Positions 1 through 7,260 of a stretch of 64,000 bases of DNA are shown here, one piece after another. Every line of letters starts with the position of its first letter. Position 1 is the first letter of the stretch. The notes under the pieces are model-generated. The model saw only the letters and a list, made by a program, of their open reading frames with translations. It was not told the origin of the DNA and searched no databases. The DNA comes from Parabacteroides distasonis. Lineage in GTDB: Bacteria > Bacteroidota > Bacteroidia > Bacteroidales > Tannerellaceae. The position numbers and the translations under genes are program-made. The stretch spans positions 1-64,000 of the forward strand of contig SUXM01000006.1 in assembly GCA_015060925.1 (NCBI GenBank), written 5' to 3'.

Positions 1-1069
1 ATATGGAATAAATAGCTATATTTGTTCCATATCTTCTTGTGGAAGATAGAACTAACTTAATTATTCATTAAAAGACCAAAGCAATCACTATGAAAGAGGT
101 GAAGTTTATCGATCCGAAATCGGATTATGGCTTTAAAGTGCTGTTTGGCACAGTGGCAAACAAGGAGTTGACAATCGGTTTTTTGAACAGTCTCTTGGAT
201 AAACAAATCAAGGACATTACGTTTCAGAATGTCGAGATGTTGGGAGAAAACAGCGGAAACACGAAGGTGATCTTTGACCTTTTTTGCGAAACGGAGGATG
301 GAGAGTGTTTCATCGTGGAGATCCAGAAGAAAAAACAGCAGTATTTTTCGGATAGGGTCTTGTATTACGCCTCTTTTGTCATCCAACGACAAGCACAGAT
401 GGAGCGGAAACGTATCCAAACAGTGTTCGGCAAAGGAAAGAAACATTGGGAATATCGGTTTAGCAAAGTGTATGTGGTCTGTTTCTTGGATTTCATTATG
501 GATGCCCGTTACCCGGATAAATACCGTTGGGACATAGTTCGTATGGATCGAGAGTTGAAGGAACCGTTCAGTGACACACTGAATGAAATCTATTTGGAGT
601 TGCCGAAGTTCAAGTTGGATTTTTCGGCTTGCGATACGGCTTACAAGCGATTTTTGTACATATTAAATCATGTAGAAATTATGGGAGAGATACCAAAACA
701 TATTTGGGAGAATGATAACTTTTTGAAGAAGTTAAAGAGTGCGGTCGAGGTAGAACGGATGAGTTTGGACGAGCGTTTGGCCTACGAATTGAGTTTATCG
801 GTTGAACGAGATTGGTATGCCTGCATGGAATATCGCTATGAAGAAGGTGTGGAGAAAGGAAAGTTGGAAGGGAAGCAAGAAGGTATAGAACAAGGATTAG
901 AACAAGGCAAACAGGCAGGTTTAGAAGAGGGATTTATAAAAGGAAAACTTCAGACCGCCACCAATATGAAAAAGAGTGGCATTGATTTGCAAACCATTGT
1001 AGATTGTACAGGATTATCAATGGAGGAGGTAGAAAAGTTGTAAGTTGCCAAGTTAAGCATATTGAAATT
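1..1069 (+). repeat. Rpn cassette repeat, copy 1 (intact, left edge cut by window)
   Basis: This is the first of four related cassettes at 1, about 2147, 3296 and 4497. The shared unit starts with an AT-rich promoter segment carrying the -7 box TATATTTG (17-24 here), runs through about 65 bases of nearly identical leader, then the rpn reading frame, and ends just after the stop with a conserved stretch ending AAGCATATTGAAATT (about 1055-1069). The left border lies outside the window. Confidence 0.85.
90..1043 (+). CDS. Rpn family recombination-promoting nuclease / PD-(D/E)XK nuclease family protein
   Basis: 317 aa. The N-terminal two thirds match the Rpn/YhgA-like PD-(D/E)XK nuclease family (often labelled transposase): the opening FIDPKSDYGFKVLFG, then D63 and E77-x-Q79 in FIVEIQ, which fit the usual D...ExQ core. 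Family members are DNA endonucleases linked to recombination and phage defence. The C-terminal 120 residues hold a charged tail rich in KxEGxEQG repeats, likely coiled coil, then a short helical end (TATNMKKSGIDL...MEEVEKL). An in-frame ATG at 681 (residue 198) would give a C-terminal-only product, as reported for E. coli RpnA where that product blocks the nuclease. Its own promoter is at 17-24 and a strong hairpin terminator follows at 1079-1125. A second intact copy lies at 2261. Confidence 0.85.
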   Translation: MKEVKFIDPKSDYGFKVLFGTVANKELTIGFLNSLLDKQIKDITFQNVEMLGENSGNTKVIFDLFCETEDGECFIVEIQKKKQQYFSDRVLYYASFVIQRQAQMERKRIQTVFGKGKKHWEYRFSKVYVVCFLDFIMDARYPDKYRWDIVRMDRELKEPFSDTLNEIYLELPKFKLDFSACDTAYKRFLYILNHVEIMGEIPKHIWENDNFLKKLKSAVEVERMSLDERLAYELSLSVERDWYACMEYRYEEGVEKGKLEGKQEGIEQGLEQGKQAGLEEGFIKGKLQTATNMKKSGIDLQTIVDCTGLSMEEVEKL

Positions 1070-2146: not shown

Positions 2147-3194
2147 ATAAATAAAGGGCTAAAAGTTGTATATATGGAATAAATGGCTATATTTGTTCCA
2201 TATCTTCTTGTGGAAGATAGAAGTAACTTAATTATTCATTAAAATACCAAAGCAATCACTATGAAAGAAGTGAAGTTTATCGATCCGAAATCGGATTATG
2301 GCTTTAAGGTGCTATTTGGCACAGTGGCAAACAAGGAGTTGACAATCGGTTTTTTGAACAGTCTCTTGGATAAACAAATCAAGGACATTACGTTTCAGAA
2401 TGTCGAGATGTTGGGAGAACATTCGGGAAACACGAAGGTAATCTTTGACCTTTTTTGCGAAACGGAGGATGGAGAGTGTTTCATCGTGGAGATCCAGAAG
2501 AAAAAACAGCAGTATTTTTCGGATAGGGTCTTGTATTACGCCTCTTTTGTCATCCAACGACAGGCACAGATGGAACGGAAACGTATCCAAACAGTATTCG
2601 GAAAAGGAAAGAAGCGTTGGGAATACCGGTTTAGCAAAGTGTATGTAGTCTGTTTCTTGGATTTCATCATGGATGCCCGTTACCCGGATAAATACCGTTG
2701 GGATATTGTCCGCATGGATCGAGAGTTGAAGGAACCGTTCAGTGACACACTGAATGAAATCTATTTGGAGTTGCCGAAGTTCAAGTTGGATTTTTCGGCT
2801 TGCGATACGGCTTACAAGCGATTTTTGTACATATTAAATCATGTAGAAATTATGGGAGAGATACCAAAACATATTTGGGAGAATGATAACTTTTTGAAGA
2901 AGTTAAAGAGTGCGGTCGAGGTAGAACGGATGAGTTTGGACGAACGATTGGCTTATGAATTGAGTTTATCTGTCGAACGAGATTGGTATGCCTGCATGGA
3001 ATATCGCTATGAAGAAGGTGTGGAGAAAGGGAAGCAAGAAGGTATAGAACAAGGATTAGAAAAAGGAAAACTTCAGACCGCCACCAATATGAAAAAGAGT
3101 GGCATTGATTTGCAAACCATTGTAGATTGTACAGGCTTATCAATGGAAGAGGTAGAAAAGTTGTAAGTTTGCCGAGTTAAGCATATTCAAATTT
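2147..3194 (+). repeat. Rpn cassette repeat, copy 2 (intact)
   Basis: The left border, by comparison with copies 3 and 4, is near the ATAAATAAAG stretch at about 2149. The -7 box TATATTTG is at 2188-2195 with GTTG 19 bases upstream as a plausible -33 element. The leader and coding start are almost identical to copy 1. The unit ends near 3194 (GCATATTCAAATTT). Confidence 0.85.
2261..3166 (+). CDS. Rpn family PD-(D/E)XK nuclease, second intact copy
   Basis: 301 aa and nearly identical to the protein at 90-1043, with the same D63 and ExQ core. The only sizeable difference is in the tail, where this copy lacks 16 residues of the repeated EGxEQG segment, so the coiled-coil tail is shorter. The in-frame ATG at 2852 (residue 198) would yield a 104-residue C-terminal product. 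The near identity of leader, body and tail points to recent duplication or gene conversion. A long GU-rich hairpin at 3197-3245 terminates it. Confidence 0.85.
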   Translation: MKEVKFIDPKSDYGFKVLFGTVANKELTIGFLNSLLDKQIKDITFQNVEMLGEHSGNTKVIFDLFCETEDGECFIVEIQKKKQQYFSDRVLYYASFVIQRQAQMERKRIQTVFGKGKKRWEYRFSKVYVVCFLDFIMDARYPDKYRWDIVRMDRELKEPFSDTLNEIYLELPKFKLDFSACDTAYKRFLYILNHVEIMGEIPKHIWENDNFLKKLKSAVEVERMSLDERLAYELSLSVERDWYACMEYRYEEGVEKGKQEGIEQGLEKGKLQTATNMKKSGIDLQTIVDCTGLSMEEVEKL

Positions 3195-3196
3195 AA

Positions 3197-3245
3197 AAAC
3201 ATGTGATTGATTCTATAGGGGAGTCGGTTGCATGTTTTATTTTTG
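3197..3245 (+). terminator. Hairpin terminator after rpn copy 2
   Basis: AAACATG pairs with CATGTTT and the inner 10 positions on each side also pair if GU wobbles are allowed, leaving a loop of about 7 nt. TTTTATTTTT follows. Confidence 0.65.
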
Positions 3246-3412
3246 TCTGTTATCAGACCGATGAAGCTACTCGTATGTCCTTTAGTGAGTAGTATAAAAT
3301 AAATAAAGGGCTAAAAGTTGTATATATGGAATAAATAGCTATATTTGTTCCATATCTTCTTGTGGAAGATAGAACTAACTTAATTATTCATTAAAAGACC
3401 AAAGCAATCACT

Positions 3413-3457
3413 ATGAAAGAGGTGAAGTTTATCGATCCGAAATCGGATAATGAGTAG
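3413..3457 (+). pseudogene. N-terminal remnant of rpn copy 3 (14-codon leader frame)
   Basis: Encodes the first 12 residues of the Rpn protein plus Asn-Glu and a stop. It is now only a short upstream frame ending 12 bases before the ATG at 3470, so it could deliver ribosomes to the C-terminal frame by reinitiation. Confidence 0.7.
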
Positions 3458-3469
3458 TATGTAGAAATT

Positions 3470-3784
3470 ATGAGAGAGATACCAAAACATATTTGGGAGA
3501 ATGATAACTTTTTGAAGAAGTTAAAGAGTGCTGTCGAGGTAGAACGGATGAGTTTGGATGAACGCTTGGCTTATGAGTTGAGTCTATCTGTCGAACGAGA
3601 TTGGTATGCCTGCATGGAATATCGCTATGAAGAAGGTGTGGAGAAAGGGAAGCAAGAAGGTATAGAACAAGGATTAGAAAAAGGAAAACTTCAGACCGCC
3701 ACCAATCTGAAAAAGAGTGGCATTGATTTGCAAACCATTGTAGATTGTACAGGCTTATCAATGGAAGAGGTAGAAAAGTTGTAA
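3470..3784 (+). CDS. Detached Rpn C-terminal domain protein (possible RpnS-like regulator)
   Basis: 104 aa, equal in length to residues 198-301 of rpn copy 2 and differing from it at only a couple of positions (Met-Arg-Glu for Met-Gly-Glu at the start, Asn-Leu for Asn-Met near the end). It starts exactly at the in-frame internal ATG of the intact genes. It lacks all nuclease residues and keeps the charged tail and C-terminal helix. The cassette promoter is retained upstream. In E. coli, a C-terminal product of rpnA made from an internal start neutralises the toxic full-length nuclease; a stand-alone version of that product is the attractive reading here. The alternative is simple decay that happens to leave an open frame. 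Confidence 0.6.
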   Translation: MREIPKHIWENDNFLKKLKSAVEVERMSLDERLAYELSLSVERDWYACMEYRYEEGVEKGKQEGIEQGLEKGKLQTATNLKKSGIDLQTIVDCTGLSMEEVEKL

Positions 3785-3820
3785 GTTGCCAAGTTAAGCA
3801 TATTGAAATTAAGATATTCT

Positions 3821-3866
3821 TTTATGCACACTTTATTTGTTTTTGTGCATAAATATTCTACTTTTG
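3821..3866 (+). promoter_or_regulatory. Promoter with overlapping inverted repeat, upstream of DUF2147 gene
   Basis: TTTG at 3836-3839 and TACTTTTG at 3859-3866 are 19 bases apart, a textbook Bacteroides -33/-7 pair. A perfect 10-bp inverted repeat (TTTATGCACA 3821-3830, TGTGCATAAA 3844-3853) brackets the -33 element, so it may be an operator. Confidence 0.6.
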
Positions 3867-3894
3867 CAGCGTTTTTAATTAAAAAAAGTAGAAA

Positions 3895-4350
3895 ATGAAA
3901 AAATTAATGATGATTTTTATGGGAGCATTGATGATGGTGCTTCCGAGTTTTGCACAAGGTATTAATGATAAAGCTGATAACATTGTAGGTGAATATTTGA
4001 CAGACCGTGGAGGTAGTAAAAGTAAAGTTCGTGTGACGAAAAATGTTGATGGAACTTATGATGCACAAGTTTTCTGGGTTGAAAAACCATTGGATGCAAA
4101 GGGAAACAAACGTAAGGATGTAAAGAATCCAGATAAAAGTCTTCGCAATGTAGATATTGATCAAGTTGTTGTAGTAAAAGGATTGAAATATGATGCGAAT
4201 GATAAGGCATGGGGTGATACAAAAATATATGATCCTTCAAAAGGTATTCGTGTAAATGTAACCGCTGAGTTTGAAAGTCCCGAAAAATTAAAACTTCGTG
4301 GAACCATATTGGGTATTGGAACAACCATTTATTGGACAAAGATAAAATAA
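3895..4350 (+). CDS. Secreted DUF2147 domain protein
   Basis: 151 aa with a clear signal peptide (MKKLMMIFMGALMMVLPSFAQG, cleavage near residue 20). The mature part matches DUF2147: NIVGEYLTDRGGSKSKVRV, a central YDAQVFW segment, and a C-terminal LRGTILGIGTTIYWTKI strand, as in small periplasmic beta-rich proteins of this family. The function of the family is not established. It is a single-gene unit with a strong promoter at 3836-3866 and a strong terminator at 4369-4395, set between Rpn cassettes 3 and 4. Confidence 0.8.
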   Translation: MKKLMMIFMGALMMVLPSFAQGINDKADNIVGEYLTDRGGSKSKVRVTKNVDGTYDAQVFWVEKPLDAKGNKRKDVKNPDKSLRNVDIDQVVVVKGLKYDANDKAWGDTKIYDPSKGIRVNVTAEFESPEKLKLRGTILGIGTTIYWTKIK

Positions 4351-4368
4351 TCTAAAGATTGTAGAAGA

Positions 4369-4395
4369 AGAGGTTCGTAAGAACCTCTTTTTTTT
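4369..4395 (+). terminator. Rho-independent terminator
   Basis: AGAGGTTC, loop GTAA, GAACCTCT, then a run of T. A classic hairpin 19 bases after the DUF2147 stop codon. Confidence 0.9.
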
Positions 4396-4398
4396 GTA

Positions 4399-4497
4399 GG
4401 TTATTTGATATCCAGTAACCCAATGCATCAGTACACTTTCGTAGGTGAAAGTGGAAAAGGTGGTAAAACCGCCACAAAGTCCGGTCGTGAGTAGCAT
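4399..4497 (-). pseudogene. Fragment of a crcB/fluC fluoride channel gene
   Basis: The minus-strand translation from 4497 reads TTGLCGGFTTFSTFTYES, the signature of CrcB/FluC fluoride channels (GFCGGFTTFSTF...E). Only about 30 codons survive. The 5' part would lie where Rpn cassette copy 4 now begins, and the 3' part runs into the terminator of the DUF2147 gene. No other crcB piece was seen. The match rests on one short but very characteristic motif. Confidence 0.6.
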
Positions 4498-4687
4498 AAA
4501 AATAAATAAAGAACCGAAAGTTGTGTATATGGAATAAATGGCTATATTTGTTGCATATCTTCTTGTATAAGAAGAAAGTAACTTAATTATTCATTAAAAT
4601 ACCAAAGCAATCACTATGAAAGAGGTGAAGTTTATCGATCCGAAATCGGATATGAGTAGTATGTGGGGAGATTATGAGAGACATTGA
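4497..4687 (+). repeat. Rpn cassette repeat, copy 4 (promoter and first codons only)
   Basis: The promoter segment and leader are more diverged than in copies 1-3, but the first 12 codons (ATG 4616) are identical. The frame then continues through 11 unrelated codons to TGA at 4685-4687. The remainder of rpn is gone and the beta-mannosidase gene starts 14 bases later. Copies 3 and 4 share the junction word GAGTAGTATG, as if derived from the same deleted ancestor. Confidence 0.75.
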
Positions 4688-4701: not shown

Positions 4702-7260
4702 ATGAAACAGCTTTTTTTAGGTTTATTGTTGCTATTGAGTCATCAGTTGATGGGGCAGGAGCAGGAAGAAATTTTGGATTTAAACCAAAAGTGGTATTTT
4801 ACCCAGGCGGGTAAGGATAATTGGTTGGCGGCAGAAGTGCCGGGAACCGTACATCAGGATTTGATTCGTCATCAACTTTTGCCGGATCCTTTTTATGGTA
4901 TGAATGAAGCAAAAATCCAATGGGTAGAAGAGGAGGACTGGGAATATAAAACTAGTTTCGTGGTAACTGCAGATCTGTTGAATCGAGATGCTGCTGTACT
5001 TAATTTTGAAGGTTTGGATACCTATGCAGATGTATATCTGAATGGAGCTTGCTTATTGAGGGGGGACAATATGTTTGTTGGTCATAAAGTACCGGTGAAG
5101 CAGTTGTTACGGGAAGGTGAAAATCATCTGCACATCTATTTTCATTCTCCTATTAAACAAACTTTACCGCAGTGGCGTTCTAATGGATTTAATTATCCGG
5201 CAAGCAATGATCATCGTGAGGAAAAATTGAGTGTTTTTACCCGTAAAACGCCTTGTAGTTTTGGTTGGGACTGGGGAATTCGGATGGTGACCAGTGGAAT
5301 CTGGCGACCGATTTCTTTGTGTTTTCAAGATGTGGTAGCCATAGAAGATTGTTATGTTCGTCAAGTTGAAATATCTTCCTCACTTGCAAATTTGGAGGTG
5401 GAGTTGGAATTGGAAAATTTGAATGGAAAGTCTTCTCCTATCACTGCTTTAGTATCTTATTATTTTCCGGGCAAGGAGAAACAAGAAGTAGAAAAACAGC
5501 TTGTATTGGATCCGGAAAAGACGAAAGTAACCATTCCTGTTCAAATAAAAGATCCTGAACTTTGGATGCCAAACGGTTGGGGAAAACCCAATTTATATGA
5601 TTTTGAAGTTATTTTGAAAAATGGTAATCAAATCGTTGCACAGAAAAAACAACGGGTGGGGTTACGTACCATAAAGGTCGTGAATGAAAAGACTGAAGAT
5701 GGAGAATCTTTTTATTTTATGGTAAATGGAAAACCTTTGTTTGCGAAAGGAGCCAATTATATACCTTCGGATGCTATGTTGCCAGCAGTTACACCGGAAC
5801 GTTATCGCTCTTTATTTGAAGATGTAAAATCGGCTAATATGAATATGCTTCGTGTATGGGGAGGAGGCATCTATGAAAATGATTATTTTTATGAGTTGGC
5901 AGATGAATTGGGTATTCTGATTTGGCAGGATTTTATGTTTGCTTGTGCCCCTTATCCACATGATCCGCTTTTCCTAAAGCGAGTAGAGGCTGAAGCAAAA
6001 TATAATATTCGACGCTTAAGAAACCATGCCTGTATAGCTATGTGGTGTGGAAATAATGAAATTTTTGAAGCAATCAGATTTTGGAGTTGGAGACATAAGT
6101 TATCTCCGGAAATGTATGAAGAAAAGAAGAAGGGGTACAAAATACTTTTTGAAGATCTGTTAGCTAAAGCGGTTGAAAAATGGGACGGAGAACGTTTTTA
6201 TATGCATAGCTCACCCTACTTTTCACGTTGGGATCAACCGGAAACCTTTAATATAGGAGATAGCCACCATTGGGGGGTATGGGCCGGTAAAAAGCCTTTT
6301 AGTATTTTTGATCAGGAAGTACCTCATTTCATGAGTGAATTTGGATTCCAGGCATTTCCGGAAATGAAGACGATTGCCACTTTTGCTGATTCGGCAGATT
6401 TTCAGATTACTTCACCTGTTATGAATATTCATCAAAAAAGTTCTGCGGGTAATGGTTTGATTCATACTTACATGGAAAGAGATTACGTGGTGCCTGAGAA
6501 ATTTGAGGATTTTGTTTATGTAGGATTGGTTATGCAGGGAAGAGGTATTCGGCAAGGTTTTGAAGCTCATCGTCGAAACCGCCCTTATTGTATGGGGACC
6601 CTGTATTGGCAGTTGAATGATAACTGGCCGGTCGTTTCTTGGTCCGGACGAGATTATTATGGTAATTGGAAGGCTTTACATTATCAAGCCAAGCGTGCTT
6701 TTGCTCCTTTATTGGTGGATGTATATCAAGATAAAGATCAATTGCAAGTTTGGTTGATCTCTGATGAATTACAAGATCGAAAAGGGTTGACAATGGAAAT
6801 GAAATTGACCGATTTTTATGGAAAAGTAATAAAGAGAGCAAGTTATCCGGTGGAAGCATTAGCCAATAGTTCATCGAAAGTATTTGATCAGAAAGTGACG
6901 GAATGGGTTACTCCGGAATTACAAAGAAAATGTTATTTGTTAGTGACGTTGAAAGATAAAAACAATAAGCAATTGAGTGAAGAACCCTATTTCTTTAATG
7001 TTCCAAAAGAACTTGATTTGCCGAAAGCTTCTGTTGTTTCAAAAGTAAAAGTGAAAGATGGTGTGTGTGAAGTGACATTGAAGAGTTCTGAGTTGGCCAA
7101 GGATGTATTTATTGAAATTCCGATACAAGGTGCTCGTTTTAGTGATAATTTCTTTGACCTTTTACCTAAAAGTACTCGTAAAATTGTGATTACTTCTCCT
7201 TCCATCAAAGAAGGTCAGCCGATACAGCTAAAGATAAATCATATACGGAATACTTATTGA
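4702..7260 (+). CDS. Secreted beta-mannosidase, glycoside hydrolase family 2
   Basis: 852 aa from the ATG at 4702, preferred over a TTG 18 bases upstream because it opens directly on a signal peptide (MKQLFLGLLLLLSHQLMG). It releases terminal beta-linked mannose from oligosaccharides, probably in the periplasm. The N-terminal jelly roll (WYFTQAGKDNWLAAEVPGTVHQD), the middle Ig-like domain and the TIM barrel follow in the usual GH2 mannosidase order. The acid/base Glu lies in WCGNNE (residue 453) and the nucleophile Glu in FMSEFGFQ (residue 546). Length fits the family. It has lost its own upstream region to Rpn cassette copy 4, whose promoter may drive it. A hairpin lies just downstream (7281-7340). 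Confidence 0.9.
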   Translation: MKQLFLGLLLLLSHQLMGQEQEEILDLNQKWYFTQAGKDNWLAAEVPGTVHQDLIRHQLLPDPFYGMNEAKIQWVEEEDWEYKTSFVVTADLLNRDAAVLNFEGLDTYADVYLNGACLLRGDNMFVGHKVPVKQLLREGENHLHIYFHSPIKQTLPQWRSNGFNYPASNDHREEKLSVFTRKTPCSFGWDWGIRMVTSGIWRPISLCFQDVVAIEDCYVRQVEISSSLANLEVELELENLNGKSSPITALVSYYFPGKEKQEVEKQLVLDPEKTKVTIPVQIKDPELWMPNGWGKPNLYDFEVILKNGNQIVAQKKQRVGLRTIKVVNEKTEDGESFYFMVNGKPLFAKGANYIPSDAMLPAVTPERYRSLFEDVKSANMNMLRVWGGGIYENDYFYELADELGILIWQDFMFACAPYPHDPLFLKRVEAEAKYNIRRLRNHACIAMWCGNNEIFEAIRFWSWRHKLSPEMYEEKKKGYKILFEDLLAKAVEKWDGERFYMHSSPYFSRWDQPETFNIGDSHHWGVWAGKKPFSIFDQEVPHFMSEFGFQAFPEMKTIATFADSADFQITSPVMNIHQKSSAGNGLIHTYMERDYVVPEKFEDFVYVGLVMQGRGIRQGFEAHRRNRPYCMGTLYWQLNDNWPVVSWSGRDYYGNWKALHYQAKRAFAPLLVDVYQDKDQLQVWLISDELQDRKGLTMEMKLTDFYGKVIKRASYPVEALANSSSKVFDQKVTEWVTPELQRKCYLLVTLKDKNNKQLSEEPYFFNVPKELDLPKASVVSKVKVKDGVCEVTLKSSELAKDVFIEIPIQGARFSDNFFDLLPKSTRKIVITSPSIKEGQPIQLKINHIRNTY

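Follow-up and report, generated by a model that had tools for sequence, protein, structure and literature searches.

Is an rpn nuclease gene that has lost its catalytic part, while its 5' region and C-terminal frame stay intact, an antitoxin gene in its own right or the remnant of a deletion? The question is raised by a locus of Parabacteroides distasonis (assembly GCA_015060925.1) on contig SUXM01000006.1, of which positions 1 to 64,000 were analysed (the window, contig C22 of a 2.54-Mb assembly in 41 contigs, 88% complete). Two intact genes for Rpn nucleases (copies 1 and 2) are followed there by a third copy without the core (copy 3, 3296–3784). Copy 3 is a representative of a known class in an unusual layout. 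Tentatively, and with slightly less than even confidence, we regard it as a core-deletion derivative of rpn that forms a promoter-bearing, stand-alone gene for an RpnS-like antitoxin. This reading builds on the retained promoter-like box and leader, the missing core, the intact tail frame and a repeat length equal to that of copy 2, as well as on the recurrence of such copies, purifying selection on a core-less pair in genome G009, the precedent of Escherichia coli RpnS, and the altered motifs of tail-less frames.

90..1043, + strand: rpn copy 1, intact, 317 amino acids (aa); Pfam PDDEXK_2, 161.4 bits, and TIGR01784, 87.2 bits
2261..3166, + strand: rpn copy 2, intact, 301 aa; Pfam and TIGR01784 matches
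3296..3448, + strand: copy-3 5' cassette and first 12 rpn codons; aligned with copy 2 (157 nt, 96% identical) and with copy 1 (129 nt, 99% identical)
3318..3347, + strand: promoter-like TTG-N19-TATATTTG, from the aligned upstream regions of the rpn subfamily
3348..3367, + strand: predicted 5' hairpin TTCCATA/TGTGGAA, from folding of the upstream region
3413..3457, + strand: leader frame of 14 codons (12 rpn codons, two more, TAG), by frame reading
3470..3784, + strand: stand-alone Rpn tail frame, intact, 104 aa; TIGR01784 positions 186–273, E 1.4e-12, 48.0 bits
3614..3784, + strand: putative RpnS-equivalent part, 56 aa, comprising the four-residue repeats and the helices at the end, by profile alignment with RpnA

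Structure of the core-less copy

The frames at 90 and 2261 are intact and have an in-frame ATG at codon 198 (positions 681 and 2852), as a preliminary description of this DNA had stated. Copy 3 retains the 5' cassette and codons 1–12, and codons 13–194 are gone. After the 12 codons follows a 10-base filler, and the match to rpn restarts 9–11 bases 5' of the ATG at 3470, the range being due to two bases common to filler and tail; the restart had been placed at 10 bases. Both the 14-codon leader and the 104-codon frame were recovered as described, the latter with two more ATGs in frame, at 3548 and 3614. D63, E77 and Q79 are invariant across 15 Rpn proteins (alignment A3). Copies 1 and 2 are members of the Rpn/PDDEXK_2 nucleases (PF12784, TIGR01784), whereas copy 3, which has no PD-(D/E)XK core and aligns with positions 186–273 of the TIGR01784 model, is not an Rpn nuclease; it has no Pfam match at 1e-3, and its 48.0 bits lie under the TIGR01784 cut-off of 52.1 bits.

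The near identity of copy 3 to the tail of copy 2 amounts to 319 of 326 positions, with seven differences, a single one of which lies beyond position 3004. Copy 3 is a mosaic, with a repeat part nearest to copy 2, a cassette nearest to copy 1, and two synonymous states that otherwise occur only in other stand-alone tails.

In the upstream regions of the subfamily, TATATTTG is located 73 or 80 bases 5' of the ATG in all nine sequences aligned, with TTG 19 bases 5' of it in eight; the exception, copy 1, begins at a contig end. TTG-N19-TATATTTG is presumably a promoter of the Bacteroidetes type. Each subfamily RNA is predicted to fold a hairpin after the promoter-like box, at about the same site and with different bases in different copies. 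Since box and hairpin are kept intact in copy 3, its cassette, to judge from the sequence, looks alive.

Comparison with RpnS and the repeat-match rule

The Rpn proteins of E. coli are reportedly treated in PMC5350276; among the papers listed, only PMC10327210 deals with Rpn antitoxins. According to PMC10327210, RpnS tails bind and block RpnL, their repeats begin 8–20 residues past the start, and in RpnC the block is lost when either partner has one more four-residue repeat. The paper also describes separate downstream genes, rpnES (ypaA), the protein of which was detected, and a second rpnCS. Core-less rpn copies in Bacteroidales did not appear among the papers listed, in a literature the coverage of which excluded most subscription papers.

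Like RpnS of E. coli, copy 3 has a C-terminal Rpn segment with four-residue repeats, encoded apart from and beside its parent; downstream tails of E. coli cluster with the upstream parent. Unlike RpnS, the putative antitoxin frame lies behind a copy of the 5' cassette and of codons 1–12 of the parent gene, and can begin well before the repeats: the ATGs at 3470, 3548 and 3614 (M246) precede them by 53, 27 and 5 residues. Codon 198, proposed earlier as a start of the RpnS type, therefore probably does not correspond to the E. coli RpnS start. In a profile search, the last approximately 40 residues of the tail align with residues 6–44 of RpnA (PDB 7TH0, 49 residues, the three-helix fold of RpnS). 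The match is weak (39 residues, E 0.98), although repeats and tail end keep the same register; it would confine the antitoxin part to the last 40–56 residues and make a start at 198 an upstream extension. Reduced synonymous variation around ATG198, which might have indicated that translation begins internally, was not convincing. The DUF4351 family (PF14261), a label given in PMC10327210 to separate rpnS genes of some species only, was not listed for the tails of copy 3, L085, L186 and L143 at E up to 5, a range in which the HMMER filters drop most matches above 0.1.

Tail length is 104 aa in both copies 2 and 3; the other four same-subfamily full-length copies found in the genome have tails of 120, 100, 124 and 120 aa. 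Copy 2 is the likely cognate nuclease of copy 3. Relief of toxicity of both the 301- and the 317-aa proteins had been envisaged; because copy 3 equals only copy 2 in length, the repeat-match rule would restrict the effect to the 301-aa protein. As an antitoxin gene, copy 3 would be transcribed from its own promoter. Translation would begin at 3470 or else at 3548 or 3614, perhaps with ribosomes reinitiating once they have passed the leader frame. The product would pair through its repeat helix with the tail of copy 2 and keep this nuclease inactive, independently of starts inside copy 2.

Recurrence of stand-alone tails in the genus

When copy-3 DNA was compared with 58 other genomes, 34 of them of the same genus, close matches were found in G029 only, and weak ones in G031, G002, G022 and G050. 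A full-length protein query gave 22 matches in its own genome, comprising 10 full-length genes, three second segments of these, four contig-end pieces and five tail-only places, namely copy 3, contig C36, C9:101438, C6:15505 (broken) and C6:46450 (3' of an intact gene). The search matches on C36 and C9 contain two stops each, both located before the tail frame, and ATG198 is the first in-frame ATG in C36, C9 and G029:C45.

Regions of the genus were drawn from part of the matches listed. In 133 such regions, 135 full-length frames were present in 130 regions. The 13 frames that were not full-length comprised five tail-only frames away from contig ends (L073, L085, L143, L145 and L186:2076-2474), an internal deletion (L077), the two frames of one frameshifted gene (L188), a masked frame (L190), and four frames at contig ends (L080, L107, L186:2551-3231 and L189), which were set aside. 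L186 belongs to another subfamily; within about three residues of the position equivalent to ATG198, and immediately 3' of the junction, it too has an ATG.

A 5' end and a tail with the core missing, as in copy 3, occur at no fewer than nine loci (copy 3, L073, L085, L077, L226, L234, L239, L255 and L259) in eight genomes of the genus (G000, G002, G005, G009 twice, G017, G025, G027 and G033), so that C-terminal-only frames next to intact genes, for which a search had been suggested, do recur. As the later examples came from searches for short frames, nine is a minimum and does not give a rate. L077, a downstream rpn copy that has lost the core through an in-frame deletion of 294 bases, is a clean case. 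The small frames of L073 and L085, both in G009, have their ATG four codons past the stop of an intact rpn, and their first approximately 30 residues resemble the N-terminus of the parent (53% over 30 residues and 52% over 31). The N-terminus is fused in frame to the tail in L239 and L255; in L226, L234 and L259 the N-terminal codons are out of the tail frame, like those of copy 3. Several short direct repeats of the type GGATAG..AGTATCCAA are located 3' of the small genes of L073 and L085.

Twelve loci from one search pair and eight from another were also inspected. A separate set of twenty regions was hand-picked from the short-frame rows of the matches listed and does not provide an unbiased count. 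Of these twenty, eight contained contig-end pieces, one a frameshifted gene (L228), and 11 had tail frames off contig ends, including the long frame of L242 (positions 93–290). In L229, three partial Rpn tails follow each other on one strand (2346–4493). Three single proteins used as queries found no relative on viral contigs, and alignment A3 offered no sufficiently conserved stretch with which to search them; one degenerate pattern matched one viral contig piece (L245). The sole PADLOC match, located in the repeat part, was a weak one to ‘putative invertase’.

Tail-less frames as a control

Away from contig ends, none of the 133 regions contained a tail-less frame. The supposition that such frames are absent was overturned by L302, L315 and L308, which were located by a search with the N-terminal half and inspection of the short rows among the matches listed. 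L302 (G026, 1264–1950) and L315 (G020, 1264–1950) are orthologues of 229 aa, and L308 (G033, 1489–2163) has 225 aa. All three are altered in the E-x-Q motif: IVEIQ of copy 2 is replaced by IVQIQ in L302 and L315, and in L308 IVEM is followed by N, not Q. These two independent cases hint that an active nuclease may need its tail. The remaining short N-terminal pieces inspected lie at contig ends (L327, L342 and probably L343) or are broken genes (L330, L334).

Selection on core-less copies

The intact frame of copy 3 had been put forward as an argument against debris. In 20,000 simulations with seven random substitutions, in which indels were not modelled, start, frame and stop survived in 53%, which makes the argument a weak one. 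Selection is seen in G009, where the core-less derivatives L073 and L085 differ with a ratio of non-synonymous to synonymous substitution rates (dN/dS) of 0.18 over 97 codons (P 3.7e-6 versus neutrality), and of 0.15 over the first 57 codons from the ATG (P 0.0015). This pair is under purifying selection. Conversion from the full-length genes hardly explains the low ratio, since both small genes are far from these (dN 0.40 and 0.49), and conversion of one small gene by the other would reduce dN and dS alike.

Three other candidate signals were discarded. Five of the seven changes that separate copy 3 from copy 2 are synonymous, an excess that was dropped because other copies share six of the seven states. 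The ratio of 0.08 for C36 and G029:C45 (nine synonymous, no non-synonymous changes) was left out because a tail has been swapped, and the dN/dS of 0.24 for L186 and L225, two tail-only copies in G010, because conversion can explain it, the tail of L186 being 96% identical to that of its full-length neighbour.

Copy 4, junction repeats and the surrounding array

The preliminary description did not include a fourth copy, which has the same junction as copy 3. Identity of cassette and filler implies that copies 3 and 4 either share a core-less ancestor or were subject to conversion between them.

4499..4684, + strand: rpn copy 4, with cassette, 12 codons and the copy-3 filler, the tail gone save about 20 bases, by alignment
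3286..3295, + strand: TGAGTAGTAT, first 10-base direct repeat, directly 5' of the copy-3 cassette, by sequence search
3451..3460, + strand: TGAGTAGTAT, junction filler and second direct repeat, by sequence search

With both strands of the 64 kb taken together, TGAGTAGTAT occurs three times, at 3286, 3451 and 4653, and nowhere else. In copies 3 and 4 alike, a 155-base cassette is flanked by the 10-base direct repeat at a spacing of 165 bases (3286–3460 and 4488–4662); the repeat 5' of copy 4 reads TGAGTAGCAT, and the bracketing resembles a target-site duplication. It might stem from templated repair or from a small insertion of the duplicative type. Copy 4 places an rpn promoter cassette, together with a short leader frame, immediately 5' of a long frame with its ATG at 4702, which, judged by eye only, is beta-mannosidase-like (GH2-type), and the cassette may serve as promoter of that gene. 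The DUF5053 gene together with the next cassette (1537–2273) recurs at the end of contig C6 (G000:C6:1-737) with 730 of 737 positions identical, and there is a 102-base overlap between the end of C6 and the start of the window contig. Probably DUF5053 and rpn were duplicated in tandem to give an array that extends into C6.

Antitoxin gene or remnant

Copy 3 might instead be passive in origin: loss of the core may have been favoured or neutral, and the tail would be a young remnant kept similar to its neighbours by recombination. We consider this doubtful, although it is a serious possibility, and several observations weigh against a stand-alone antitoxin or in favour of a remnant. Besides the survival of an unselected frame in about half of the simulations, six of the seven differences from copy 2 are present in other copies (four in full-length copies, of which three belong to the same genome and the fourth to G029; the other two are confined to C36 and G029:C45, both stand-alone tails), which means that at most one or two changes need postdate the truncation, and comparison of substitutions with other copies did not demonstrate selection on copy 3 itself. 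Its second codon carries a change from Gly to Arg that is found only in copies 3 and 4 and in the distant G031. Copy 4, the sister of copy 3, has lost its tail; the tail-less frames, too, show that tail retention is not universal, and the rarity of such copies may reflect lethality of a nuclease without antitoxin. The tail of L259 comprises the last 27 residues only, in another frame, and plainly broken pieces occur elsewhere (L014 on C6, which stops after EEEVEKL; L261, a degraded 5' piece; the partial tails of L229). Moreover, tail lengths agree in two and disagree in six of the eight adjacent pairs of stand-alone tail and neighbour in the genus set, and by the RpnC result a mismatched pair is not expected to neutralise. 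A passive remnant is less readily reconciled with the full cassette of copy 3, its lack of stops and frameshifts, and the purifying selection on the G009 pair. The proposal of a stand-alone antitoxin thus keeps the intact cassette, the recurrent tails, the selection in G009 and the rpnS genes of E. coli as its basis, while the argument from the intact frame and the equation of ATG198 with the RpnS start are not supported.

Stand-alone tails might instead form an archive that donates repeat variants to full-length genes by gene conversion, which we think unlikely. Exchange is evident from the orthologous tails on C36 (L011) and G029:C45 (L050): 1241 of 1250 upstream bases are identical, whereas between the tails there are nine synonymous changes over 55 codons and a different number of repeats, and at least one of the tails has therefore been swapped. 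The mosaic composition of copy 3 and the highly variable repeat number point the same way; however, exchange alone requires neither a promoter nor an open frame, and no pair of donor and recipient was traced. It is very improbable that the 53 residues before the repeats, with which the PDDEXK_2 match ends, assist in trapping the nuclease or in binding DNA, in a dominant-negative manner different from that of RpnS. The residues encoded by codons 200–252 are identical in 10 of 10 same-subfamily tails compared, stand-alone or full-length, which would favour such a role but is also explained by a role in the full-length protein and by conversion.

Implications for Rpn systems

Extended to the genus, the favoured reading, namely that copy 3 is a stand-alone antitoxin gene, would have rpn copies of Parabacteroides repeatedly shed the core, keep promoter, start and repeat tail, and be retained as antitoxins acting in trans and as a recombining reservoir of tail specificity; we offer this extension as possible, leaning towards doubt. 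In E. coli the Rpn antitoxin lies within the toxin gene, and both consequently change together. Stand-alone tails would break this tie, and a cell could carry antitoxins with or without a matching nuclease of its own. Copies 2 and 3, neighbours of equal repeat length, form a test pair, while the mismatched pairs of the genus probe the specificity rule. If the reading is true, a toxin and its antitoxin at one locus evolve as separate genes.
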